A DNA stretch of 44,143 bases. Source: an uncultured Pirellula sp. (GTDB taxonomy: Bacteria > Planctomycetota > Planctomycetia > Pirellulales > Pirellulaceae). The position numbers and the translations under genes were made by a program. Shown here one piece after another: positions 2,851 through 40,955 of this stretch; the first letter of the stretch is position 1, and every line of letters starts with the position of its first letter. The DNA lies in assembly GCA_903892355.1 (NCBI GenBank), contig CAITIE010000100.1:1-44143 (forward strand). The letters are read 5' to 3'. The notes below the pieces were generated by a model that made no database searches, had not been told where the DNA came from, and saw only the letters and a program-made list of their open reading frames with translations.

Positions 2851-4113
2851 GTGGCTTCAGCGAGGGTTTCGACGATTAGCATTCAAGTGGACTTGATCGT
2901 AGTTGGGGGTGGGATCGCGGGCTGTGCGATGGCCTGGCAAGCAACCCAACGGGGCTTGGAGGTGGCGGTCATCGACGATCCGACCCCCAGCAGTTCCTCC
3001 CGTGTGGCAGCTGGGTTGGTGACACCCATCACCGGAGACAGATTGGCCTTATCATGGCGATGGAGCGAGTTCTACCCGGTTTGCAACGCTCTTTACGAAC
3101 ACGCTCAGCGTAGCACCGCCACCGATTTTTGGCATGTTGCTGCCGCTTGGCGAGTCTTTCAAAGCGACCCTGAACGGGAACGTTTTTTTCATCGTTGGTG
3201 GAGTGAAGAAGGCAAACGAGAAATGGCCGCATGCGGCATCACTCTCGAGCCGATGCATGAGGACCAGCTACTCCCCTTTCGTGCCCCACGGGGAGGTTTT
3301 TCCATGTGTCCAGCCGGCCGCCTGGACACGCGAGCGTATCTCGATGCGACCGCAAAGCATTTTCGATCCAAAGACCGCTGGTACTCAATGCGATTGGACT
3401 GCAACGAGGATTTGAAAGTTGCCCCCGATCGCGTGCTCGTCCCGCGGCTGGGATTGCAAGGACGCATAATGGTACTCTGCCAAGGGATCGCAGCCCGAAC
3501 CAACCATTGGTTCGCTGGGTTGCCGTTGCATCCCGCTCGAGGCGACATTCTCGAGTTATCAACCGATGCTTCGATCCCCGCAGTCGTGCATCACGAAGCA
3601 TGGGTGGTGCCGGTGCAATCCGCCAGCGAGCCCAACGATCATTCGCGCTGTCGCCGCATCCTCGTCGGCGCGACCTACGATCGACAATGCTTGGACACCA
3701 GCGTCGACCACTCCACCGCCCGAGGTTTTCGAAGTGAGTTGCTACAGCGATGGAACAACATGCTCGCTGCGTCAACGCCGAGCGCCGGGGTCCATGATCC
3801 AGGCTATTGCGAAGCTTCAATTGGCGGCGACGGATACGAAGTCAGCGTCCTGAGACATCTTGCGGCTGTCCGCCCGGCATCGTACGACCGCCATCCCTTG
3901 ATCGGTCCTCATCCAACAGAGCCTAATTTGTATTGCTTGAATGGACTCGGGTCCAAAGGGAGCTTGATGGCCCCTCAACTGGCCAATTTGCTGCTCGATT
4001 GCATGCTGGAAAACAAAGCCATTGAACCGTCCCTCCAATGGCGTCGGCGCGAGGACAAGACGCGCGGCGACGATGATTTGCGAAGCGATTTGAGTCGGCC
4101 CCCTAAGCGTTAG
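2851..4113 (+). CDS. FAD-dependent oxidoreductase, D-amino-acid oxidase (DAO) superfamily, possibly MnmC2-like
   Basis: The N-terminus has the Rossmann dinucleotide-binding motif VVGGGIAGCAMAWQ, followed by an acidic residue at the end of the second strand (VIDDP) and SSSRVAAGLVTP. This layout is that of the glycine/D-amino-acid oxidase family (glycine oxidase, sarcosine oxidase, MnmC C-terminal half). The C-terminal NGLGSKGSLMAPQLA resembles the FAD-contacting GxGSRG segment of MnmC-type oxidases. Members oxidise the C-N bond of amino acids or of a tRNA-bound aminomethyl group; the substrate here cannot be told. The GTG at 2851 gives 420 residues; a GTG at 2887 would start just before the FAD motif and is equally plausible. 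The gene is divergent from the zinc-ribbon membrane protein. The C-terminal 25 residues are charged and probably disordered. Confidence 0.8.
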   Translation: MASARVSTISIQVDLIVVGGGIAGCAMAWQATQRGLEVAVIDDPTPSSSSRVAAGLVTPITGDRLALSWRWSEFYPVCNALYEHAQRSTATDFWHVAAAWRVFQSDPERERFFHRWWSEEGKREMAACGITLEPMHEDQLLPFRAPRGGFSMCPAGRLDTRAYLDATAKHFRSKDRWYSMRLDCNEDLKVAPDRVLVPRLGLQGRIMVLCQGIAARTNHWFAGLPLHPARGDILELSTDASIPAVVHHEAWVVPVQSASEPNDHSRCRRILVGATYDRQCLDTSVDHSTARGFRSELLQRWNNMLAASTPSAGVHDPGYCEASIGGDGYEVSVLRHLAAVRPASYDRHPLIGPHPTEPNLYCLNGLGSKGSLMAPQLANLLLDCMLENKAIEPSLQWRRREDKTRGDDDLRSDLSRPPKR

Positions 4114-4211
4114 CGACAGCATCGGGAGCATCTGCGTTAGGGAACCGAATCCGAGCCACGCGGACTGAGTGCGAAGCAGCAAAAAGTAGAACGGCTTCGC
4201 GAGCTCTTTGC

Positions 4212-4838
4212 TTACGCTAAAACCGTTCGGGGTTGTTCGGCGGTGGATTCACGCAAAACGTGTAGCATGAGATCGATGCTTCGGGCCAACTCCGATTTTG
4301 GTAACCCCGGCATGTCGCGCCCTGCTTCGACGATTTGATCCAGCGTCAACGGGAAATGGGCGAACCCAATCGGGCAGGACTTGCCACGCATCGCGTGCCA
4401 GTGATGCGACAAGTACAGAATCGCGTTGCACAAATAGGTCCCAGCATGGTACGAAATACTGGCCGGGATTCCGCCCGCGTTCAACTCGGAACTCATCTTT
4501 TCATACGGACACTCCGAGCGATATCCAATCGGGGCACCGTCGATGATCGGACCGAACATCCCACCCGGTCGATGGGTTAATCCGGCAACGTTGATTGCAA
4601 TCGTCTCCAAGCGGATCGCGCAACTTCCGGGTGCTTGACCCATGTGAAGAATCGCGTCAAATCCCATCTCCAGGTCCTTGTCCATGCGTTCCGAAAGCTT
4701 GTCCAAATTCACCGGATAACGCCGTGTGACAACGCCACTGGGCACGCCGCGCGAACGGAGTAGTTCCGTGAGCGCTTCCCAGCTCGAATTGCTGCTCCAA
4801 TGGTCATACGGTTCGAAAGCGGTCAGCAGAATCTTCAA
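4212..4838 (-). CDS. pcp: Pyroglutamyl-peptidase I family protein (peptidase C15)
   Basis: Cytosolic cysteine peptidase family that removes N-terminal pyroglutamate from peptides. The N-terminus MKILLTAFEPYDHW matches the family start. The expected catalytic triad is visible: Glu in RLETIAINVAG, Cys in SYHAGTYLCN and His in IGFAHFP. The length of 208 residues is normal for C15 enzymes. The start is a TTG, chosen because translation from it gives exactly the family N-terminus and because a purine-rich GGGGGA lies upstream. It is convergent with the FAD oxidoreductase; the 98-bp gap between them shows no clear terminator. Substrate specificity has not been shown for planctomycete members. Confidence 0.88.
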   Translation of the reverse strand: MKILLTAFEPYDHWSSNSSWEALTELLRSRGVPSGVVTRRYPVNLDKLSERMDKDLEMGFDAILHMGQAPGSCAIRLETIAINVAGLTHRPGGMFGPIIDGAPIGYRSECPYEKMSSELNAGGIPASISYHAGTYLCNAILYLSHHWHAMRGKSCPIGFAHFPLTLDQIVEAGRDMPGLPKSELARSIDLMLHVLRESTAEQPRTVLA

Positions 4839-5167
4839 GGGCTATCCCCCGGGGCTTGAATAGAGAATAGAGTTGAGCACCCGTGATCGACGGGCCTCCA
4901 AATGGAATCGGTTGCAACCTCCCTGCCGCAAGGAACGTGGGCCGCCGACAATTCAGCGAACCAGACTCGACTATAGTACTTAATTTCTCGAGGGCGAATC
5001 GTCGCCAATCGTAGGTTTTCTACGTCATGGAACGCCCACGGCTCAGGCATACACTCGCGAATACGCTAGAATTCCGGCATTCGATGGGATAAAGTGGGGT
5101 TTGAAGGGATCCCCGCTGGCGGAGTTCCCAACTCGATCTACCCGCCTTGACCATAGGATTGCTCTGG
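4839..5167. other. Divergent intergenic region upstream of pcp and the LRR gene
   Basis: About 330 bp between two divergently read genes, so it should hold promoters for both. I see no gene: the short open frames have no recognisable motif. I cannot pick out a convincing -35/-10 pair or operator by eye. AGGA at 5155-5158 is the likely ribosome binding site for the ATG at 5168. Confidence 0.5.
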
Positions 5168-6061
5168 ATGGACCATCTTTCTTCCTCCCCGCTGACTCAC
5201 TGGATAACCTACCGTTTCCTGGGCACTCTCGCAGCATCCCTCACCCTGTTCGTCACCCTCGAACCTGCCCTTATTAGCAATGCTTCTGGCCAGGACCTTT
5301 TTCCGGACAAAGCGTTGGAAGCCGCAGTACGCCGCGAAGTCTTCGAAAAGCGTTACAACGCGGAGCCAATCACCGTAGACGATGTTAAAAATATTTCGCA
5401 GGTAGTCGGCAAAGGAAAGGGGATCAAAAGCCTCGAAGGATTGCAACACTGCAAAGCGCTGATGAAGCTCGACCTCGAGAACAATGAGATCGCGGACCTC
5501 AACCCCATCCGCGAGCTGAAATTGCTCCAGTCGATCGATCTGGCAAATAACAAAATCCAAACCTTGGAGCCCCTCACCGGACTGGTTGCTGTCCAGTACT
5601 TGCACATCGCTAACAACGGGATCGAGGACATCGCGCCGCTGACCGGAATGGTCAAACTGCAATCCCTGTATGCGTCCGGCAACAAATTCAAAAAACTCGA
5701 ACCGATCTTGCCTCTCAAGAAACTATGGACTCTCGATGTCGCCGGCAGCCCGATCGAAGACTTGAATACGATCGCTGAGTTGAAAGGCTTGCAAACCGTA
5801 AACCTGAAGGGGTGCAATGCCAAGTCCTTAGACTTCACAAAATCGCTACGGGAACTGCGACTGCTCATCCTCAATGAAAACCCGAACGTTGATTTGACAG
5901 CACTCGCCGAAGTCTGCGAAGCAGACGCTCAGTCAGAACGTCGATTCGCCCCGTTCTTGAGACTGTACCTGGATGATGCCATCCTCAAGGATGAGAGCAA
6001 GAGCGCTGTCGTCGGACGATTGCGCACCGTTGGCGTTCGACTCAACCCACCGGTTCGATAG
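5168..6061 (+). CDS. Exported leucine-rich-repeat protein (internalin-type LRR)
   Basis: Predicted secreted or periplasmic binding protein. The first 45 residues contain a hydrophobic stretch (TLAASLTLFVTLEPALISNA) consistent with a signal peptide. Then comes LFPDKALEAAVR, like the cap that precedes internalin-type LRRs, and about seven 22-residue repeats of the form LxxLxxLxLxxNxIxxLxPL from roughly residue 90 to 260. Such repeats form a curved protein-binding solenoid; there is no catalytic domain. I chose ATG 5168 because AGGA lies nine bases upstream; an in-frame TTG at 5147 would add seven residues. It is followed by two small hairpins. The ligand is unknown. Confidence 0.82.
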   Translation: MDHLSSSPLTHWITYRFLGTLAASLTLFVTLEPALISNASGQDLFPDKALEAAVRREVFEKRYNAEPITVDDVKNISQVVGKGKGIKSLEGLQHCKALMKLDLENNEIADLNPIRELKLLQSIDLANNKIQTLEPLTGLVAVQYLHIANNGIEDIAPLTGMVKLQSLYASGNKFKKLEPILPLKKLWTLDVAGSPIEDLNTIAELKGLQTVNLKGCNAKSLDFTKSLRELRLLILNENPNVDLTALAEVCEADAQSERRFAPFLRLYLDDAILKDESKSAVVGRLRTVGVRLNPPVR

Positions 6062-6062
6062 A

Positions 6063-6111
6063 CGCCTGGGATAGGCGATGGCGGGGCCAGTGCCACTTGA
6101 CTATCCCCGCC
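6063..6111 (+). terminator. Two tandem hairpins after the LRR gene, possible terminator
   Basis: Directly after the stop codon is CGCCT/AGGCG (6063-6067 with 6073-6077, 5-base loop), then GGCGGGG/CCCCGCC (6080-6086 with 6105-6111, 18-base loop). There is no T-run after the second stem, so classical intrinsic termination is doubtful. Confidence 0.35.
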
Positions 6112-6125
6112 CTTCTCTCGAAGAA

Positions 6126-6234
6126 TAAGACCACTGAAAATGAAAATGCTCTGGAGTTGCCCTGATAGGAGGCCTGAACTCAGGCCCGTAATGAGGAGAA
6201 CATTGGCATTTTCTCGATCTCAAGGAAGGTCTTA
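6126..6234 (+). promoter_or_regulatory. Three-tier nested inverted repeat forming the leader of the gene at 6235
   Basis: Three pairs of complementary blocks are nested: TAAGACC (6126-6132) with GGTCTTA (6228-6234); GAAAATGC (6142-6149) with GCATTTTC (6206-6213); GGCCTGA (6171-6177) with TCAGGCC (6180-6186). In RNA these could fold into one long rod capped by a tight loop. The outer 3' arm ends on the base before the ATG at 6235 and covers the last GG of the AAGGAAGG ribosome binding site (6222-6229), so folding could reduce translation. The regulatory role is inferred; the pairing is read directly. Confidence 0.5.
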
Positions 6235-7923
6235 ATGAACGTGGTACCAATAGATACCCGATTGCCTCACACGCCAGCGTTGGCCCGCAGGGTTTCCATA
6301 GGCTCCATGGCTTCTATATGCCGTCGGGCTTCTATTATATGCCGTCGGGAGTCTATATGCTTTGCTGCCATTGCGATCAGCATTTGTTGGCATCAGGCGG
6401 GGATTGCACAAACCAGCAGCAACCTCGCCCCGGCATTTCGACCTCGTACCGATGGGATGGCCGTGCAAGATGCGGACAAGCTGCGCGAAGAATTGAAGCG
6501 AACTCGCGATTCTCGCGGACCCATCAATCCGCTGGGGGATTACGTCAAGCCACGTTCGGGCCGTACCTCAACGAACGCGGGTTTGTTAAAGAGTACGAGT
6601 GCGTCCAAAGAAGCATCCAAAGCGCTCAGCGATGATGATGAAGCGAGCCAAGTGCCATCGCTGGGAGCTGAAGCGCAATCCAGGCTCAAAGCAAACCCGC
6701 CGCAGGTTAGCTCGACGGATCTGTCGGTCGTTCAATTGCTGCCTCCATCCAAGATTCGGGATGCCGACGGCAACCCCATGTCGATGGCGATGGTCGATGA
6801 CGGGTTTCGACCTGTGAACGGCCCCCGCGCGACGAGTGGCTCACTCACGACCTCACCTAGCGTGAGAACCATCATTTCGGGGCCCGTTGTACCCGCAACG
6901 TGGGAGACGCCAGTCAATGCGTACTCAATCCCTTCCTCGATGGTCCCGAACGAAATTCGGGCGTACCAAATCGACTCGGAAGCGATGACGCAACCGACGC
7001 TTGGCGGACTCCCGTCCCTACCTGCATCACCGACTTACAATCCTGCCCCCACTTACTCAGCGCCGACGTATGCGCCAGCTCCAACCACCGGCACGCTCAA
7101 CAGTGGCATTACCAATCCGGTGCTTCCCCCATCGGCGAGCATCCCCTCAGCTCCGTCCACGATCTATGGTGGTGTACCTACCGTCCCGATGGGTACCGTG
7201 CCGTACGCAGGAGCTCCAACGCCTTCGGTCGTACCAGGCGCGATGCTCCCTTCCGCTCCATTGGGATCGATCCCTGCACCGACGATGCCGAGTACTGCCG
7301 CGCCGGTCACCGTGATGCCAGCTCCCCCAACCTATTTCGTACCCGGACCGCAAGGTCTCGTTCCAGGCGCGATGCCTTCGATGAACCCTGGTGCAACCTA
7401 CGCACCGAACACCATGCCTTCCTATTCGAAATCGGGAACCTTCGTCAACAGCGCCCCATTCGTCAGTAAAGCGCCCGAAGCAATCGATGCCCGTTGGATG
7501 GTGTCTCCTGCGGTTTACAGCCAAGCCTACGGAGCCAATTCAAATTGTGCACCTGCTAGTGCAACCGCGATGCCGGGTTCAACAGTACCAGGCATGGGAA
7601 CTGGGGCCGTGGGATCGGGCGTCTATGGAGCACCTGCAGGAATGGTACCCAACACCGCGATGCCTACCGGTGTCTTTCCCGGTTCCGCAGTCGCGCCGAC
7701 GATGAGTCCCACTCCCATTGCAACCGCCTCACCGTTTACCTATACGCCTCCCGCCGCCATGCCCCCTCAAACCGTGTACGCCGCTTCGAACGGAGGTTAC
7801 ACACCTGTTGTCGGATTTGGTCAGGGAACCAACGCACAACTTGGCCGAGGCTTGTACGGCCAACCGACAGCGTACGTCGATGGCCAGCCGGTTCGCAATT
7901 TTCTACGGTATGTCTTCCCATAG
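6235..7923 (+). CDS. Exported Pro/Ala/Thr/Ser-rich low-complexity protein
   Basis: No recognised domain. The N-terminus has arginines followed by a hydrophobic stretch (CFAAIAISICWHQAGIAQT) that could be a signal peptide with cleavage after AQ. The next 170 residues are polar. From about residue 250 to the end the chain is dominated by Pro, Ala, Thr, Ser, Gly and Met with loose P-rich repeats, as in extended cell-surface or wall-associated proteins. It ends with a conserved-looking GRGLYGQPTAYVDGQPVRNFLRYVFP-type tail, read here only as its parts GRGLYG and FLRYVFP. ATG 6235 follows AAGGAAGG by five bases. Its stop overlaps the GTG of the next gene by one base, so the two are probably translationally coupled. 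The codons around nt 6307-6358 include a repeated CTATATGCCGTCGGG. Confidence 0.72.
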   Translation: MNVVPIDTRLPHTPALARRVSIGSMASICRRASIICRRESICFAAIAISICWHQAGIAQTSSNLAPAFRPRTDGMAVQDADKLREELKRTRDSRGPINPLGDYVKPRSGRTSTNAGLLKSTSASKEASKALSDDDEASQVPSLGAEAQSRLKANPPQVSSTDLSVVQLLPPSKIRDADGNPMSMAMVDDGFRPVNGPRATSGSLTTSPSVRTIISGPVVPATWETPVNAYSIPSSMVPNEIRAYQIDSEAMTQPTLGGLPSLPASPTYNPAPTYSAPTYAPAPTTGTLNSGITNPVLPPSASIPSAPSTIYGGVPTVPMGTVPYAGAPTPSVVPGAMLPSAPLGSIPAPTMPSTAAPVTVMPAPPTYFVPGPQGLVPGAMPSMNPGATYAPNTMPSYSKSGTFVNSAPFVSKAPEAIDARWMVSPAVYSQAYGANSNCAPASATAMPGSTVPGMGTGAVGSGVYGAPAGMVPNTAMPTGVFPGSAVAPTMSPTPIATASPFTYTPPAAMPPQTVYAASNGGYTPVVGFGQGTNAQLGRGLYGQPTAYVDGQPVRNFLRYVFP

Positions 7924-33303: not shown

Positions 33304-35796
33304 ATGAACAAAATTCTCGACGGACTCAACGAATCGCAGCGAGCAGCGGTACAGCACGTAGAAGGGCCATTGCTGACCCTCGCCGGACCAGGAAGCGGAA
33401 AGACTCGCGTGGTGACTCATCGTATCGCTTATCTGATCGAGCAAGGAATCTCGCCTTATTCGATCGTCGCTTTGACATTTACGAACAAAGCGGCCCAGGA
33501 GATGAAGCATCGGGTGGGGCGATTGCTGGGCGATTCCCCGGTATGGATGGGGACGTTCCACGGCTATTGCGCCCGGTTTCTACGTTATTACGGTCGCATG
33601 ATCGGCTTGTCAGAGAATTTCTCAATCTTCGATACCGACGATTCGAAATCCGCGATCGAACAAGCGATCATGAACACGGACGTCTCGCTGACGCATCTGA
33701 AGTTGCCGGACATTATCAAGGGAATCAGCAACCTGAAAAACCGAGCCATCACTCCGGAAATGCTCGACGGACAAGCTCGCTCGGCGGTGGATCATGCGAT
33801 ACGCAAAGTCTACCCTGCCTATCAAAAGTATTTGCTTCAAAACAATGCGGTGGACTTTGACGATTTGCTCATGCATACCGCAACGATCCTGCGCACCAAC
33901 AATGAACTCCGAGCCGATCTCGACGAGAAACACCGGTACATCCTCGTCGATGAATACCAAGATACGAACTTGGCTCAATACCTGATCGTTCGAGGTTTAT
34001 CGCTCGACTACCCCAATATCAATGTCACCGGCGATCCGGATCAATCGATTTATGGGTGGCGAGGAGCCGACATCGCGAACATTTTGAACTTTGAACGAGA
34101 TTACCCCAATGTCCAAGTGGTACGGCTGGAAGAAAACTACCGCAGCACTCCAGAGATTCTGTCGGCCGCGGACGTGCTGATTTCGTCCAACACGCGTCGG
34201 AAGGAAAAAACGCTCATCCCAACGCGTGAATCGGGAGAGAAAGTTCGTATTGCAACCTATGCGTCGGCACGCGACGAAGCCGACCACATCGCCGATCAGA
34301 TCGCCGTGCACGTCCTTCAAGAAGAAGCACACCCCAAAGACTTTGCGATTTTGTATCGGACCAATGCTCAGTCACGATTGCTCGAACAAGCCCTCCTCAA
34401 ACGCAAGTTGAACTACCAATTGATCGGTGGCTTCAGGTTTTATCACCGCCAGGAAATACGAGATCTTCTTGCGTACCTGCGATTGGTCAATAACCCCACC
34501 GACGACATATCTTTCCATCGCATCGTCAATGTCCCGCCTCGTGGCTTGGGCGAGAAGTCACTCGCCCAGGTTTCAGAGCTTGCCCGGGCCAGGGAGATCC
34601 CCATGCTCGTCGCGCTGCGGGCTGCGATCGATCGAGCCATGCTCAGCAAGAAAGCATTGAGCGGTGCAAAAAAATTTCTGGAGCTCTACGATGAACTCGT
34701 GAATCGCTCAGCGATTTCGATTGTCGAGATGCTCAAGCATGTCTTGCATGCAACGGACTATATCAAATACCTCGCCTCCAAAAAATCAGAGGCCCCGGAC
34801 GAGAGTATCGAAGGCAACGTGCAGGAACTTCTTTCCGATGCATCCGAAGTCGATCAAAACAACGAAGATGGGACCGGGTTGCAGCAATTCCTCGAACAAG
34901 TCAGTTTGTCCGCCGACACCGACAATTTGACCGACGACAACCGAGTGACCTTGATGACACTGCACGCAGCAAAAGGACTTGAGTTTCCACACGTGTTTAT
35001 CATTGCCGTCGAGCAAGACATCCTGCCTCACTCCCGATCGCGCTACGACGCCAACCAAACGGAGGAAGAGAGACGTTTGCTCTTTGTAGGTATCACGCGA
35101 GCTAAGCAGACGCTCCAATTGAGCAGCGCCAGCCAACGCGGTTTCGGCAATAATCGCATGAGCAGTGCTAGTCCATTCCTCATGGAATTACCCCGTGCCG
35201 AAATGCAAATGCTCGATTACACCATGTCTAATGGACGCTTTGACACGTTCGACGACCAATGGCCCGATTCCTCATTCGGGGATTCCGAAAGCTTCCTGCA
35301 CAAGCCATCGAAAAAAGGGGCTAAATCAAGCAAGCCCAAAGAAATCAGATTCGAAGATTTCGGCTCGGAGTTTTCCGAGGAAAAAGTGGATGAACCGCTT
35401 GAGCTGTTCGATGAACCATTCAGTGACGAATTGGAAAACGCCGCCCAAAAACCCAAAAAGCAGGATAAGAAGCCAGCATCAGGGATCAAAGAGCCAGGGA
35501 TCCAAGGCATCGATGGTAATGATGAGCTCGGTGCGTTCGCAACCAAGCTTCTCGCCATCAACCATCAGCTTCCCCGGGGAATGAAGACCGCATCGGAACT
35601 AGGCAGCTCGGTTACTCTTACAGGAACCCCTGTCGATGTCTTTGAAGCGGGGATGCGGGTCTCTCATCCGCGTTATGGGCTCGGTGCCATCCTCTCGGTC
35701 GATGGATTCGGTCCGAAGAAAATGGCTCGGATTGCGTTCGATGAAGGTGACACAAAGTCATTCCAACTCAGCAAGGCCCCGCTGGAGATCGCCTAG
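33304..35796 (+). CDS. pcrA: UvrD/PcrA/Rep-type superfamily 1A DNA helicase
   Basis: 3'-5' ATP-dependent DNA helicase for repair and replication restart. All SF1A motifs are present in order: Walker A AGPGSGKTRV near residue 30, ALTFTNKAAQEM, GTFHGYCARFLR, Walker B VDEYQDTN, GDPDQSIYGWRGAD, LEENYRS, TLHAAKGLEFPHVF and RRLLFVGITRAKQ. The C-terminal region of about 190 residues has a Lys/Glu/Pro-rich linker followed by the Tudor-like end (MRVSHPRYGLGAILSVDG...) that in PcrA/UvrD contacts partners such as RNA polymerase. UvrD versus PcrA cannot be settled by eye. The last 39 bp overlap the convergent decaheme gene. Confidence 0.93.
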   Translation: MNKILDGLNESQRAAVQHVEGPLLTLAGPGSGKTRVVTHRIAYLIEQGISPYSIVALTFTNKAAQEMKHRVGRLLGDSPVWMGTFHGYCARFLRYYGRMIGLSENFSIFDTDDSKSAIEQAIMNTDVSLTHLKLPDIIKGISNLKNRAITPEMLDGQARSAVDHAIRKVYPAYQKYLLQNNAVDFDDLLMHTATILRTNNELRADLDEKHRYILVDEYQDTNLAQYLIVRGLSLDYPNINVTGDPDQSIYGWRGADIANILNFERDYPNVQVVRLEENYRSTPEILSAADVLISSNTRRKEKTLIPTRESGEKVRIATYASARDEADHIADQIAVHVLQEEAHPKDFAILYRTNAQSRLLEQALLKRKLNYQLIGGFRFYHRQEIRDLLAYLRLVNNPTDDISFHRIVNVPPRGLGEKSLAQVSELARAREIPMLVALRAAIDRAMLSKKALSGAKKFLELYDELVNRSAISIVEMLKHVLHATDYIKYLASKKSEAPDESIEGNVQELLSDASEVDQNNEDGTGLQQFLEQVSLSADTDNLTDDNRVTLMTLHAAKGLEFPHVFIIAVEQDILPHSRSRYDANQTEEERRLLFVGITRAKQTLQLSSASQRGFGNNRMSSASPFLMELPRAEMQMLDYTMSNGRFDTFDDQWPDSSFGDSESFLHKPSKKGAKSSKPKEIRFEDFGSEFSEEKVDEPLELFDEPFSDELENAAQKPKKQDKKPASGIKEPGIQGIDGNDELGAFATKLLAINHQLPRGMKTASELGSSVTLTGTPVDVFEAGMRVSHPRYGLGAILSVDGFGPKKMARIAFDEGDTKSFQLSKAPLEIA

Positions 35797-38187
35797 CAAA
35801 GCGTGATCCGAAGTTTGCACGTGATAGTTGTGGCACTTTGTACACTGATCTCCAGCCGCTTTTCGGTGATGGCAATCCGCACACGCTTCCTTTCGCATCG
35901 CTTCAAAGTGCGAATCGCTGAAACGATGCGCCACCACATCTTTCTTCTCTCCTGTCGAAACATACCGCGCAACCGCAGGTTCACGCATTGGTTGGGGCAA
36001 CATGCGATGGCAACTCTTGCAATCGCTCAAAGCGGGGATATCCAAGTGCGGGAAATGATTAAAGCGAGTGAAGGGACGATTGCCGGCTGCATGGGCCAGG
36101 GACCGCCATCCTCTATCGAGGCTTTCCTCACCTCCGGGAGTTAACGGCTCTGTCTCCAGAAACGGTTTAGGCTGGGGGTGACATTGCCGGCATTGCTGCG
36201 TCAGATCCGTGCGCCGTGATGCATGCGAGTCCTCATCCCCGGCGACAGCATCGTGAACCCCTTCCAACTCGATCCATCGTGAGATCCATGGGTCCGCATG
36301 CCCGGTAGGAACATAAACGATCGCCAATCGTTCGTTGTCGAGCATCCAACCGCCACTGGCCAGTCGATCGCGAGCCGGGAGATGTTTGGCCACTTTCTCC
36401 TTGCTGGTTTGGGGTAGAAGTTCGCCCCCTAGCCCTTTTTCCAAAAGTGAATTTCCGCCCAACAGGTCCGAGCCGGTAGGATCCTGGTCGAGCAGATCAC
36501 CTTCGTTCGACTTTGGATCGTCAACGCCACCTTTTCGGAACGTCGATTCAGGAGTGGCCAGCAGCGAGTCGCTTGAAAGCAAGTCATCTGCATCCTGATT
36601 GGCCGGAGGCTGACGAATTGGAGCGAAGGGCCTGCTAGTGGTGCTAGCAAGCTTTGCAGCGTGTGTTTTTGGAAACGCGTTTCCTAGTTTCGAATCGGAT
36701 GGTGTCTCAATTCCAAACCATTCCTGGCTGGCCAAACGGAAGAGATCCGGTGGTATCTTCGCGACCACTTGGTCGATCCACACGGCCATAGCTGCCTCGG
36801 GAAAATTGTGACTTTTTCGATACGAATCCAACCCCGATGCCATTCGTTCCGCGAGAGCTTTCTGCCCTCCCTTTGCAATGGTATCGATCAGTCGTCGGTA
36901 TGCATTCGTAATCGCGGCAACCCTGGCTCGATCCTCGGCATTGTCCACCTTGAGATCGGAGATACGAAGGGATATAGGCCAATTGCTCAGTACATCGGCG
37001 AATTCGGGATCACTCGCGAGCAGTATGCGAGTCCAAGGGTGGAGCGAGCCGTCATCGATCAAGCTTGCGGATTCAGGCCAGGCACCGATCTCAACATGCG
37101 CACCCTTCCACTTTTCAACATGGAAACTGGGGAGTTGAATCCAGGCGATACCATCTTCAAGGGCCGCGTTCAAGCTGGTCTCATGGCATTTGGAACAAGC
37201 GCGTTCAAAGGAGACGCTTCGAAAGACACTGCCTAGGGGGCCTTGCTCATCGCTCCGTAGGTGGCATTCCTTGCAGTCAAAGCTAGCCTGCTTTTTCGAA
37301 AAGTATTCCTGCTGGTGTTTGGAGTGGTCAAACGCGATCCGCGTGGTCGTTGGCGTTGGGTACGACGTGAATTCAGGATGCCCGTCACCGAAAGAATTGA
37401 ATCGCTGCACATGGCATGCTTGGCAGCGTTGAGATGTAATCGCTTCGAGCGAAGCATCAGCACCTTGATGCTCTCGATGGCATTGACTGCATTCTGTCTT
37501 CGTCAAGTGTGGGGAGCTTACCGTCCTTGGAGCGTGTGATGGTATTGGTCGCGAATCGTTTGTCGCGAGAGACGAGTGATCTGAGTCTACTCCCATGCTG
37601 GAGGGTAGCGACAGCGAGGAATCAGCGGACAACCGAAAGGAGACGAGTCGTTGCAACCCCGATGGGTTGGACGCCCCCTGCCGCACGATAGCGTCTCGGG
37701 TGAGCACGGCTAACGACTCGGTGGGAAGATCGTGAGGGCTCCCCGCTATCGCACGTGGCAATTCTCGCTGGTGGCACGATAGGCACAATTCGGACTGGGT
37801 TAACTTCAGGGACTCCTCGCCCGGCTTAGAGTTCGGGTGGCACGCTGCGCAGCGTTGCGAATCGTTAAGTCCGTGCTTGGCGAGAATCTGTGCATGGTGA
37901 CTTGAAAGCCCCCCTGGAGCGACGAGAATCGATGGTCGTGGCGAGAACAACAATATTCCGAGAATCGCGGCCGTAACCAAGCTGGCTACCATGGAAACGG
38001 TACGCTTCCACCAAACCAATGTCCGAATAGGTCGGCAGTGGTCCGAAAGATCCGTTGCGTTGTCCGAGACACCATTTTCACTCGCTGCCGCCTTCCCGCA
38101 TCGGCCATGCACCGGCCCGTGTTCGCACGGTTGTCCGATGGCTGACAACCCACATCGATAGTTTTGTTTCGGATGGCGGTACGGCAT
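35758..38187 (-). CDS. Membrane-anchored decaheme cytochrome c
   Basis: Ten CxxCH heme c motifs: CAACH (113-117), CLSCH (135-139), CSQCH, CQACH, CKECH and CSKCH in the next 230 residues, CRQCH and CKSCH later, then CADCH (769-773) and CTKCH (782-786). Spare His residues in FDHSKHQ and NHFPHLD fit distal ligands of c3-like hemes. An N-terminal helix (about 64-81) anchors it in the inner membrane with the hemes outside. The first 60 residues, on the cytoplasmic side, contain C12, C21, C30 and C51 with His residues between. A long heme-free stretch (about 350-680) may be a separate domain. It is the last gene of a three-gene redox operon, 16 bp after the cytochrome b gene. The outer electron acceptor or donor is unknown. 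Confidence 0.86.
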   Translation of the reverse strand: MPYRHPKQNYRCGLSAIGQPCEHGPVHGRCGKAAASENGVSDNATDLSDHCRPIRTLVWWKRTVSMVASLVTAAILGILLFSPRPSILVAPGGLSSHHAQILAKHGLNDSQRCAACHPNSKPGEESLKLTQSELCLSCHQRELPRAIAGSPHDLPTESLAVLTRDAIVRQGASNPSGLQRLVSFRLSADSSLSLPSSMGVDSDHSSLATNDSRPIPSHAPRTVSSPHLTKTECSQCHREHQGADASLEAITSQRCQACHVQRFNSFGDGHPEFTSYPTPTTTRIAFDHSKHQQEYFSKKQASFDCKECHLRSDEQGPLGSVFRSVSFERACSKCHETSLNAALEDGIAWIQLPSFHVEKWKGAHVEIGAWPESASLIDDGSLHPWTRILLASDPEFADVLSNWPISLRISDLKVDNAEDRARVAAITNAYRRLIDTIAKGGQKALAERMASGLDSYRKSHNFPEAAMAVWIDQVVAKIPPDLFRLASQEWFGIETPSDSKLGNAFPKTHAAKLASTTSRPFAPIRQPPANQDADDLLSSDSLLATPESTFRKGGVDDPKSNEGDLLDQDPTGSDLLGGNSLLEKGLGGELLPQTSKEKVAKHLPARDRLASGGWMLDNERLAIVYVPTGHADPWISRWIELEGVHDAVAGDEDSHASRRTDLTQQCRQCHPQPKPFLETEPLTPGGEESLDRGWRSLAHAAGNRPFTRFNHFPHLDIPALSDCKSCHRMLPQPMREPAVARYVSTGEKKDVVAHRFSDSHFEAMRKEACADCHHRKAAGDQCTKCHNYHVQTSDHALLGDLQRGLAELE

Positions 38188-38203
38188 CGTATCCTCGTAT
38201 CGA

Positions 38204-39094
38204 CTACCAATGGCTTGAGAAACGAAACGCTAGGTAGACGTGAGCAATGCACAACAGGACGAACGAGCTGAGCAAGATGGAATGAAGTGCTGCCACGACT
38301 CGGACTCGAACTTGGATCGCATGCTGAAAGTCGACGCGGTCCTTGGCATCAACGAGTTGGATTAGTTCGTCCCGCATCGCCTTCGCGTCGTGTCCGAGAT
38401 AACGATCGAGCCCCGCCAAACCAGCGGTCAATAAGCGGCATTTGGATGCTGTCGGGAACACTCGAAACCGGAGGTTCCGTGGGCGATTGAAAAAAGCGGT
38501 CAATTGGATTCGATAAAAATCCGCGAGTACCGCCGACTCGTTTCTTCCAGCCGCCGACAGAGCTATTCGGTAAGCTTTTTCCGCCAACTCGCGTTTCTTT
38601 TGAGGTAAATCCTCGCGAAGCACATGGACCCCAGCGGCCCGAATCATTTTCGGACTTGTCCGATTCACATACCAACTCAAAAACCCGGTTGCGATGATGA
38701 ACCAAAACGTGATCGCCAACCACATCTCAATCCATCCGTTCACAAGAAATCCAGCATGCATTGCATAAACCAGCAGACAAACGCAACCCAAGTACTGATG
38801 GGTGGCTTGCCACAGGGCAATTGACCCGAAATTCGACCGCACCATCTTTTTGCGAAGAGGGAGCAGGGCGAGCAATGCACATATCGTGGCGAGTGCATAT
38901 CCGGTTGCGAATCGCTCATTCCCGAGCGAGGCATCGGTGTTTCGCGATATCAAATACATTGCGGCGCCGGTGATCAGCACGAGCAGCAACGAAAGAATCC
39001 GGAGCCGTTTTGCATGGGTCGCCCGATTATTGGCGACCATAGCTGGATTCATGGAGGTGCTGTTCTCAGCGGCGATCGATACGGATGTACTCAT
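38204..39094 (-). CDS. Diheme b-type cytochrome membrane subunit
   Basis: Integral membrane protein of 296 residues with about five hydrophobic segments. Two pairs of His are spaced exactly 14 residues apart within membrane helices: H99/H113 (WQATHQYLG, YAMHAGF) and H271/H285 (ALHSILLS, IAHVY), as expected for two stacked b hemes bridging two helices. This matches the ferric-reductase/cytochrome b561-like four-helix plan, with an inserted soluble loop of about 110 residues (150-260). It lies between an iron-sulfur subunit and a decaheme, so it probably carries electrons between the cytoplasmic face or quinone pool and the outside. The direction is not determined by sequence. Ten bp separate it from the upstream gene. 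Confidence 0.8.
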   Translation of the reverse strand: MSTSVSIAAENSTSMNPAMVANNRATHAKRLRILSLLLVLITGAAMYLISRNTDASLGNERFATGYALATICALLALLPLRKKMVRSNFGSIALWQATHQYLGCVCLLVYAMHAGFLVNGWIEMWLAITFWFIIATGFLSWYVNRTSPKMIRAAGVHVLREDLPQKKRELAEKAYRIALSAAGRNESAVLADFYRIQLTAFFNRPRNLRFRVFPTASKCRLLTAGLAGLDRYLGHDAKAMRDELIQLVDAKDRVDFQHAIQVRVRVVAALHSILLSSFVLLCIAHVYLAFRFSSHW

Positions 39095-39104
39095 GACGAT
39101 ACGA

Positions 39105-40955
39105 TCACCCTTTCACGCCGAGCCAGGGTGTCAGCGAGACGACATTGGACGTATCCAAACGGACCAAGGCTGCGTGAGGGCAGGCGTTTTGGCAAGCGGG
39201 CCCCGCACCGATACCGTGGCACAAATCGCATTTGCTCGCTTGCAGGATCGGGAGTTGAGTCTGGCGATCGAATGCGAGTCGACCACGGCTATCCGTGCGT
39301 TGGATCATGACGATGTTTTCGTAGGGACAACTCTCCGAACATGTCTTGCAGCCGATGCAGGTATTCGCGTTGATGGAAACAACGCCAGACTCGGAGTCTC
39401 GGCCGATCGCACCGGTCGGACAACCGATCATGCACACCGGATCCTCGCAATGCATGCACGCGTGCGCGAACATAAGCGGTCCTATCTGCGGCCCGTTGCG
39501 AACAAACCTAGGCGTTCCCCCATGGGTTGCAGCGCAGGCTTTGACGCAATCATCGCATCCGGTGCAACGATCAAGATCGATCATCATGGTCCGCTTGCCA
39601 TTGATCAATCGCTCATCCACCAAAAACTCGACGAGCGAAACGAGTTCATGATTGTCGATCAGCGGCTTTCCGGCCTCCGAAACGACCAACCCTCCCGTGT
39701 CGTACCGAGGCGATTCAATCAATGGGGGTAGTTCACTCTTGCGTACGTTCGGGAGGACGTACTCGATAAGAACATCCTTGGGGATACGCAGGATATCCAC
39801 GTATCCCAACGCGCGAAGTGAGCTTTGGTAAGGTAGCGGCGCCTCCCATGGGCGTCGATAGTTTTGGGAAACCTCGTCCAATCCAAAGAATCGCCCACGC
39901 CCCAGATACGACATCGTTTGATGACCATTCCCAATTTCGTAACTGACACGCGCGAAACCGTTTCGAATCAAGATTAAATCGTCCGCGGAATCCCCCTCCG
40001 ATACGATCAAGGGTTCTGATTCGATCCGTTCTTGCAGATCTCGCTGCCTGTTGATTCGGTAATCCGCAAACCATTCCATCTCGCCGAAGGACTCAAGTCG
40101 GGTCACGGCTGCGATTTTGTCGAGCGATTCATCGCTGAGAAATCGAAACAATTCAATCTCGCGAAGATTTGTTTTCAAGCTGGTCTCTCGATACTGCTGA
40201 TCGAGTTGGTCACGAAACTGACGGTCGCGACGCAAGAGCCGTAAGCCTTGCCAGCGGATCTCCATCACGAGGCATTCGGAATCGGCGACAACCGTATAAC
40301 GATGAGGAGTCCGCGTGATGGCGGCCATCTCGCCAAATATTTCTCCCACACCGAGCGCATCGGATTCGTACCCATCCACTACGGCATTGATATCTTGTAG
40401 GAAGACACGATTCCCCGACGAATCGGATTTCACCATCTGAAGTGGCGCAGGTATCTGCGGATTCTTTGGGGATTGGTTGGCGGGCTCCGAGCGCCGCGAT
40501 GACCTGCGATCGTCGGCATTATCCGAGCGACGCCATCGGCTTGTTAACATCGATAGAAACGAATCGCTCCCCGTGGACCGATCGTCGTGCTTGATCCGCC
40601 ACAGTGGCTCCAAAAAAGCGCGAACAGTCCCATCGAGAATCAGGTAGGCGCTATGCCCGTATGCGCCTTCGCGAACGACGATATCGCCCGCGCGAAATTG
40701 ATGGATCTTGCAGTCGTTTCTTAAAATATCAAGCAACGAGCAATTCGACGAAAACGACTCCGGGTTCATGCTTGAAAACGGAGGTAGACGCAGCATCCAT
40801 TGCAACTCATGCGATGCCATCGCGGGATCGAGCGGATGATCCCACCGGACCGGACGGTCGACGACCACTGTTCCTGATGATGATTTCAAAGGCATCTCTT
40901 GAATTGCTGTCAAATCGCAGCGGCGTGCAGGTACTTCTCGGGCTAGGGTGATCAT
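39105..40955 (-). CDS. Cyclic-nucleotide-binding domain x2 fused to a four-cluster ferredoxin
   Basis: Fusion of 616 residues. The N-terminal half has two cNMP-binding-type domains. The first (about residues 75-265, split by a low-complexity insertion) keeps a phosphate-binding cassette-like FGEMAAITRTPHRYTVV with the Arg; the second (about 320-435) is degenerate (FFGLDEVSQNYR). The C-terminal 200 residues resemble HycB/NrfC-type electron-transfer subunits with sixteen cluster Cys in four groups: CTGCDDCVKAC, CMHCEDPVCMIGC, CIGCKTCSESC and CDLCHGIGAGPACQNAC. No signal peptide or Tat motif, so cytoplasmic. First gene of the redox operon, 10 bp before the cytochrome b. The ATG has no clear ribosome binding site; an ATG at 40895 is an alternative start. 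Confidence 0.85.
   Translation of the reverse strand: MITLAREVPARRCDLTAIQEMPLKSSSGTVVVDRPVRWDHPLDPAMASHELQWMLRLPPFSSMNPESFSSNCSLLDILRNDCKIHQFRAGDIVVREGAYGHSAYLILDGTVRAFLEPLWRIKHDDRSTGSDSFLSMLTSRWRRSDNADDRRSSRRSEPANQSPKNPQIPAPLQMVKSDSSGNRVFLQDINAVVDGYESDALGVGEIFGEMAAITRTPHRYTVVADSECLVMEIRWQGLRLLRRDRQFRDQLDQQYRETSLKTNLREIELFRFLSDESLDKIAAVTRLESFGEMEWFADYRINRQRDLQERIESEPLIVSEGDSADDLILIRNGFARVSYEIGNGHQTMSYLGRGRFFGLDEVSQNYRRPWEAPLPYQSSLRALGYVDILRIPKDVLIEYVLPNVRKSELPPLIESPRYDTGGLVVSEAGKPLIDNHELVSLVEFLVDERLINGKRTMMIDLDRCTGCDDCVKACAATHGGTPRFVRNGPQIGPLMFAHACMHCEDPVCMIGCPTGAIGRDSESGVVSINANTCIGCKTCSESCPYENIVMIQRTDSRGRLAFDRQTQLPILQASKCDLCHGIGAGPACQNACPHAALVRLDTSNVVSLTPWLGVKG

Follow-up and report, generated by a model that had tools for sequence, protein, structure and literature searches.

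In a 44,143-nucleotide contig of an uncultured Pirellula sp. (CAITIE010000100.1; this whole stretch is called the window here), three adjacent minus-strand genes, A, B and C, encode a protein with two cyclic nucleotide monophosphate (cNMP)-type binding domains (CNBDs) and a ferredoxin region, a membrane protein predicted to carry two b hemes, and a membrane-anchored decaheme c-type cytochrome. The ligand residues of these proteins are conserved in a pattern that is far beyond chance. On balance, we favour a reading in which A, B and C form the inner-membrane section of a multi-gene, NAD(P)H-fed pathway of electron export, whose flow is likely to be set by a nucleotide in the wider family. This reading is built on sequence, namely on domain architecture, invariant ligands, gene linkage, co-occurrence, charge-based topology and the linkage of a nucleotide cyclase; from these we infer heme and cluster loading, complex formation, the direction of flow, the function and location of a barrel-like partner, nucleotide binding and the final acceptor.

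In the proposed pathway, electrons from NAD(P)H would enter through a membrane-anchored FAD/[2Fe-2S] reductase, represented in the window genome by a diverged copy on another contig, and would pass to four [4Fe-4S] clusters of A in the cytoplasm. They would then cross the membrane on two stacked b hemes of B, reach ten bis-His c hemes of C in the periplasm and continue to a c554-like tetraheme cytochrome and then, probably, to a pentaheme cytochrome and a barrel-like protein, paired at the outer membrane. The final acceptor would be periplasmic or extracellular. In the wider family, flow would likely be set by a cyclic nucleotide that binds A and is made by a linked class III cyclase.

A conserved three-gene redox module

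The window makes up contig C100 of a draft genome (G000) of 6.18 Mb. Two sets of loci were compared with it: 40 loci picked through matches to B (at E 1e-3, 86 of 149 genomes of the family matched, many of them weakly), and 80 named loci picked through A alone, which are the best 80 of at least 524 relatives. Loci were counted as distinct if the last 400 residues of A differ, which gave 108 distinct loci, 41 from the window and the B-picked set and 67 from the A-picked set. Of the 105 distinct loci that are not cut by a contig end, 104 have B directly after A on the same strand (the sole exception is L160), and in all 101 testable distinct loci C comes next after B. Four loci (L148, L150, L171 and L176) were scored as contiguous for A and B, since the choice between overlapping frames in open reading frame (ORF) calling explains the apparent exceptions. 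The 67 A-picked loci were found by A alone, so the presence of B and C played no part in their selection. The trio is thus kept together, as a sequence-only reading of the window had proposed to check by a neighbourhood survey. In L071 and L164, C appears to be broken up into two or three frames, by decay or assembly error, and was still counted.

Within the window, the gene order on the minus strand is A, a 10 bp gap, B, a 16 bp gap and C. The sequence-only reading had listed these gaps together with two cNMP-type domains, sixteen ferredoxin-type Cys, two His pairs and ten CxxCH motifs, and all of these parts were borne out.

Gene A (39105..40955, minus strand; defined by ORF, Pfam and relatives) encodes 616 residues, including four [4Fe-4S]-type Cys sets. 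It lacks a hydrophobic segment resembling a transmembrane (TM) helix, and the protein is predicted to be soluble. Pfam identifies cNMP_binding (PF00027) above its cut-off (E 2.6e-23, 82.2 bits versus 27.5) as well as several Fer4 models. The C-terminal ferredoxin region resembles the 4x[4Fe-4S] proteins HycB and HydN (residues about 455-600; 39156..39593, minus strand). Its cysteines are ordered as CxxCxxCxxxC, CxxCxxxxCxxxC, CxxCxxCxxxC and CxxCx8CxxxC, and a regular expression for this order, as expected of 4x[4Fe-4S] subunits of the HycB/NrfC/DmsB type, fits all 41 aligned A sequences; the sixteen Cys are invariant in this alignment and all present in 108 of 108 distinct A proteins. When A was compared with NCBIfam, HydN reached 73.7 bits of the 260 required, and the matches listed (25 of 73 families), among them HmcB, DsrO, QrcC and TmcA, all fell below cut-off.

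Gene B (38204..39094, minus strand; defined by ORF, alignment and structure model) encodes a membrane protein of 296 residues. Only four columns of its alignment hold His in at least 85% of rows, His99, His113, His271 and His285, and each of them is occupied by His in 41 of 41 proteins. This is the number of ligands that two b hemes need, and B is predicted to carry two. In the structure model, the His pairs lie on helices 92-114 and 235-294, and the spacing within a pair is 13-14 throughout the family (41/41). An insert of about 120 residues separates TM4 from TM5 and is predicted to be cytoplasmic from the positive-inside distribution of charges. No curated Pfam family matches B; the best score is that of Ni_hydr_CYTB (PF01292, cytochrome-b561-type), with 15.5 bits versus a cut-off of 30.1, and this model is weak across the B family (12/41, best E 0.0027). 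PF01794 likewise gives weak matches to six of the 41 proteins at E up to 1 (best 4.5e-4), with no match for the B of the window.

Gene C (35758..38187, minus strand; defined by ORF and Pfam c7/c3-type matches) encodes 809 residues. A 62-residue N-terminal tail (38002..38187) precedes a single hydrophobic N-terminal segment that forms the TM anchor (residues 63-81; 37945..38001). This is followed by hemes 1-6 (37171..37851), a heme-free linker of about 330 residues (36193..37170) and hemes 7-10 (35818..36192). The alignment of C comprises 39 of the 41 proteins and omits a copy truncated at a contig end and a split one. All 37 proteins with ten CxxCH motifs share the layout of six plus four hemes with a long gap, and the other two have eleven motifs. 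Exactly twenty columns hold His in at least 85% of rows, and each does so in 39 of 39 proteins: ten belong to the CxxCH motifs and ten lie elsewhere, which is what ten bis-His c hemes need. The distribution of charges places the hemes, by prediction, on the outer side of the membrane and the N-terminal tail in the cytoplasm. The tail contains four Cys, including a CxxGP..C-type motif, and has no convincing Pfam match. A motif of the type CxxGPxxxGxC occurs in 31 of the 39 C proteins, in up to three copies (L074, L076), and is absent from the others. The tail is possibly a metal or cluster site that bridges A and C.

The trio linkage, the invariant His and Cys sets and the charge-based topology all support the view, put forward in the sequence-only reading, that the three proteins constitute a trans-membrane electron wire.

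The 66 named rows with a phylum, a name taken from record titles and mostly referring to metagenome bins, comprise 53 Planctomycetota, 10 Verrucomicrobiota and one each of Bdellovibrionota, Latescibacterota and Nitrospinota. Among the best 80 of at least 524 relatives, the nearest named A-bearing record is the uncultured Pirellula isolate ErkenSummer_bin-4334 (96% identical), and the matches listed include Rhodopirellula baltica, Stieleria sedimenti, Roseimaritima sediminicola and Adhaeretor mobilis. A profile of B matched 89 of 392 genomes of the phylum at E 1e-6, 34 of them with more than 150 bits; its weaker matches take in other diheme b families. Around the trio, the end of C overlaps a convergent ORF, named by eye as UvrD-like helicase (33304..35796, plus strand), by 39 bp. 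Tandem repeats of the hexanucleotide TGCTCG/CGAGCA are found near both ends of the contig (1-34 and 43906-44018) and are perhaps assembly break points.

Partner genes and the proposed direction of electron flow

The sequence-only reading had described the wire as self-contained and as having no catalytic subunit, and neither description is supported. In 29 of the 108 distinct loci, the next two genes upstream of A encode a reductase and a c554-like tetraheme cytochrome. The linked reductase is TM-anchored and of the FNR type, with FAD/NAD-binding domains and a C-terminal [2Fe-2S] domain. This count excludes L073-L076, where two tetrahemes lie in between, and other loci with gaps. A catalytic subunit regularly found beside the trio had been named in advance as evidence against a self-contained wire; the proposal failed in part on this point. 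Five of the 29 (L127, L150, L166, L172 and L176; one record each named Latescibacterota, Nitrospinota, Halobacteriovoraceae, Pedosphaera and Planctomycetota) form a seven-gene row in which a pentaheme cytochrome and a barrel-like gene lie further upstream. The same pair is located downstream of C in L073, L144, L151, L156 and L177.

The tetraheme and the pentaheme also co-occur with A across genera, even where they are unlinked, as in the window genome. Given as genomes with both, A only, partner only and neither, the counts over the 149 family genomes are 64/5/3/77 for the tetraheme (33/1/1/33 by genus, of 68), 62/7/5/75 for the full-length pentaheme (32/2/2/32 by genus, of 68) and 47/22/3/77 for the full-length reductase. 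The cut-offs differ between these counts: E 1e-80 for A, E 1e-20 for the tetraheme, more than 500 bits for the pentaheme and a hand-set full-length criterion for the reductase. In the window genome, the tetraheme gene is found on contig C4, and C14 carries the pentaheme gene with the barrel-like gene immediately after it; the diverged reductase (273 bits) lies on C91, where it adjoins a gene named by eye as RNase III-like. The same RNase III-like gene also adjoins the reductase in G074 and the reductase-tetraheme pair in G023 and G059, and does not do so in G137 and G147. In G105 and G123, which belong to the same genus as the window genome, searches at these cut-offs found neither A nor the tetraheme, pentaheme or reductase.

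The pentaheme profile matches a solved cytochrome c552 (5ze8, E 1.4e-15), which we take to be a pentaheme, and the tetraheme profile matches cytochrome c554 (1bvb, E 5.3e-14). Beyond the CxxCH His, each protein has five conserved His; in the pentaheme, four of these are present in 13 of 13 sequences and one in 12 of 13. The barrel-like gene adjoins the pentaheme gene in all 13 pentaheme loci and in the window genome, and its products end in Phe in 14 of 14 cases.

A second, paralogous kind of system was found in eight loci (L236-L242 and L244), and versions of it are present in G059 and in G105 of the same genus. The B-like diheme b protein keeps the same four His in all eight, and the multiheme c protein has 9, 10 or 14 hemes (it is cut off in L244). 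A match to the cyclase profile is present in 8/8 loci, although not always adjacent, and some loci also have a tetraheme. Six of the eight contain a CNBD/ferredoxin protein that matches the profile of A, weakly in L236, and five (L236, L237, L238, L241 and L242) contain a NuoEF-type protein or its beginning. Pfam confirmed the proteins scanned, three of the NuoEF type and three with CNBDs. Two unrelated NAD(P)H-dependent modules, FNR-type and NuoEF-like, are thus found beside the same kind of core, which argues for outward flow from NAD(P)H.

Possible nucleotide control and competing readings

The sequence-only reading had suggested that the input subunit is gated by a nucleotide or by another ligand. 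Of the 29 reductase-tetraheme-A loci, 22 have a class III cyclase gene as divergent neighbour. Two operon-linked cyclases were scanned and match PF00211 above cut-off (52.6 and 65.6 bits versus 21.9). D331 and D375, which we take to be the two metal-binding Asp, are invariant in the linked cyclases (24/24; for example in L048, L051, L055 and L056). Equally invariant are Asp371 and G445 (24/24), at what are presumably the site of the adenylate-type purine-specifying Lys and the second specificity position. The purine-specifying Lys was found in none of the 24, all of which have Asp371, and the nucleotide product is therefore not predictable.

The first CNBD of A, CNBD1, spans about residues 76-241 (40233..40730, minus strand; boundaries approximate) and contains a long insert. 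Its phosphate-cassette region reads FGEMAAITRTPHRYTV in the window, with His218 at the usual position of the phosphate-binding Arg, Arg219 adjoining it and Tyr220 where a small residue is usual. Across the family, Arg218 is found in 33 of 41 proteins and Glu209 in 41 of 41. CNBD2 (residues 314-398; 39762..40016, minus strand) has an atypical cassette, FGLxE...SLRA, with E361 in 41/41 and R381 in 38/41 sequences.

The CNBDs might alternatively be structural relics that bind nothing and merely scaffold the ferredoxin on B, which we regard as possible, if somewhat unlikely. The substitutions at positions 218 and 220 of the window protein and the atypical CNBD2 cassette fit this explanation, as does the window genome, in which the profile of the linked cyclase had no match at E 1e-60. 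It is at odds with Glu209, which is present in all 107 scorable sequences of the 108, with the combination of Arg218 and a small residue at position 220, seen in every one of the 22 cyclase-linked loci, and with the canonical cassettes, such as FGEMSCMTMSPRSAT, in the three paralogous proteins looked at, which are located in cyclase-bearing loci. A nucleotide as the controlling ligand thus gains some support, from the class III cyclase linked in many relatives and from the canonical motifs of the paralogous loci, and gating is doubtful for the species of the window, where His218 and the lack of an orthologous cyclase hit suggest that cyclic-nucleotide control looks altered or lost. The window genome has three other PF00211 proteins, one of which lies beside a CNBD gene on contig C98 (L243). 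This cyclase gene (2940-5303, plus strand) is directly followed, at the place of the CNBD match, by a gene (5345-6775, plus strand) whose product has about four TM segments, and the two are a possible cNMP-gated channel or transporter pair.

A more specific form of the favoured reading is that the system is a quinone-independent conduit from NAD(P)H to the cell surface in several phyla, whose entry subunit is directly opened or closed by a nucleotide from a dedicated linked cyclase of unusual specificity. We advance this form tentatively and regard it as rather doubtful.

Several findings weigh against the favoured reading of an NAD(P)H-fed export pathway. Cyclase linkage needs only four changes on the tree of A, so the 22 cyclase-linked loci are not 22 independent events, and an independent-pairs test of an intact CNBD1 cassette against operon linkage, which takes relatedness into account, gave no significant association. 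Full-length reductase is missing from 22 of the 69 A-bearing genomes, and input through it is therefore not universal; seven genomes have A without a full-length pentaheme and five without a tetraheme, some of these assemblies being incomplete. In the window genome, the components are dispersed, so their partnership there rests on co-occurrence among related genomes. L239 and L240 have a CNBD protein and no NuoEF-like gene in the stretch fetched. Four barrel-like proteins matched no Pfam family, their profile matched no relevant PDB sequence, and the pentaheme seems short for a trans-outer-membrane conduit. Finally, extracellular respiration would not be expected of aerobic heterotrophs, which many of the carriers are.

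The same core could also work in the opposite direction, with periplasmic donors feeding C, then B, then A and finally ferredoxin or NAD(P)+ in the cytoplasm, to serve biosynthesis or redox poise. Every carrier is reversible in principle, and the ferredoxin region of A resembles HycB/HydN. This explanation appears unlikely to us in view of the two unrelated NAD(P)H-dependent modules linked to the core; moreover, driving electrons uphill onto NAD(P)+ would take a source of energy, and no coupling subunit was recognised beside the trio among those neighbours annotated. We give similarly little credence to the idea that the pentaheme and tetraheme are periplasmic reductases of nitrite, NO, hydroxylamine or a similar substrate, with A, B and C as their NAD(P)H-fed supply. 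It draws on the profile matches to c552 and c554, but leaves the barrel-like partner unexplained, and the five extra conserved His in each cytochrome leave no open catalytic heme evident. An Fe or Cu reductase for uptake, as a split version of the STEAP/NOX-type ferric reductases, is improbable.

Relation to known electron-transfer systems

If the export reading is correct, bacteria of the planctomycete-verrucomicrobia group, many of which are grown as aerobes, carry an NAD(P)H-driven electron-export route. Since this route is not built on the parts of CymA, CbcL or ImcH, surveys that use those markers would miss it. Trans-envelope electron conduits are known already, and nucleotide control would be the part that is new in principle: direct control of an electron-transfer protein by a nucleotide would, if true, constitute a new regulatory principle. 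The proposal is testable, as A is predicted to be soluble and to contain both clusters and nucleotide pockets, and named strains are among the matches. The open-licence literature searched yielded no description of an arrangement of CNBD-ferredoxin, diheme b and decaheme proteins.

CymA, CbcL/MtrH/MtoC and ImcH are quinone-linked membrane multiheme c proteins that join the cytoplasmic membrane to extracellular electron transfer, according to PMC6295460. These proteins resemble the present system in having a membrane-bound multiheme c protein, here C, but are described there as quinol oxidases or quinone reductases, whereas an NAD(P)H-type reductase and a CNBD protein with 4x[4Fe-4S] make up the linked input here. 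B and C are, in addition, separate chains. The cytochrome-b561-type domain (PF01292), for which B scores below the cut-off, is presumably a trait of CbcL.

In freshwater Verrucomicrobia, a porin gene is clustered with genes for periplasmic multiheme cytochromes and has been proposed to act in extracellular electron transfer; as portrayed in the main text of PMC5615132, which has no mention of "cyclic nucleotide" in a text search, the cytochromes have eight heme sites and the porins at least 20 TM motifs. Compared with this description, the present system has a barrel-like gene, a candidate porin, beside multiheme c genes, likewise in bacteria of the Planctomycetes-Verrucomicrobia-Chlamydiae group, and the partner here is a pentaheme.

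The Hmc, Tmc, Qrc and Dsr complexes of sulfate reducers combine an FeS protein, a membrane subunit and a multiheme c protein without a classical Mo enzyme. These complexes lack cNMP domains and have membrane subunits of the NrfD or NarI type, in place of which the present system has the B family. STEAP, NOX and ferric reductases have His pairs about 14 residues apart on two helices and receive electrons from a flavin reductase. B shares this His-pair layout, and the proposed input here is likewise a flavin reductase, but B differs in having no curated Pfam match, a large insert predicted to be cytoplasmic, and FeS and decaheme partners. In the CRP family and in CNBD-fused enzymes and channels, a CNBD with an FGE...R cassette controls an attached function. 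The controlled part here would be an electron-transfer chain, and such a wire would be to electron transport what a cyclic-nucleotide-gated channel is to ion flow.

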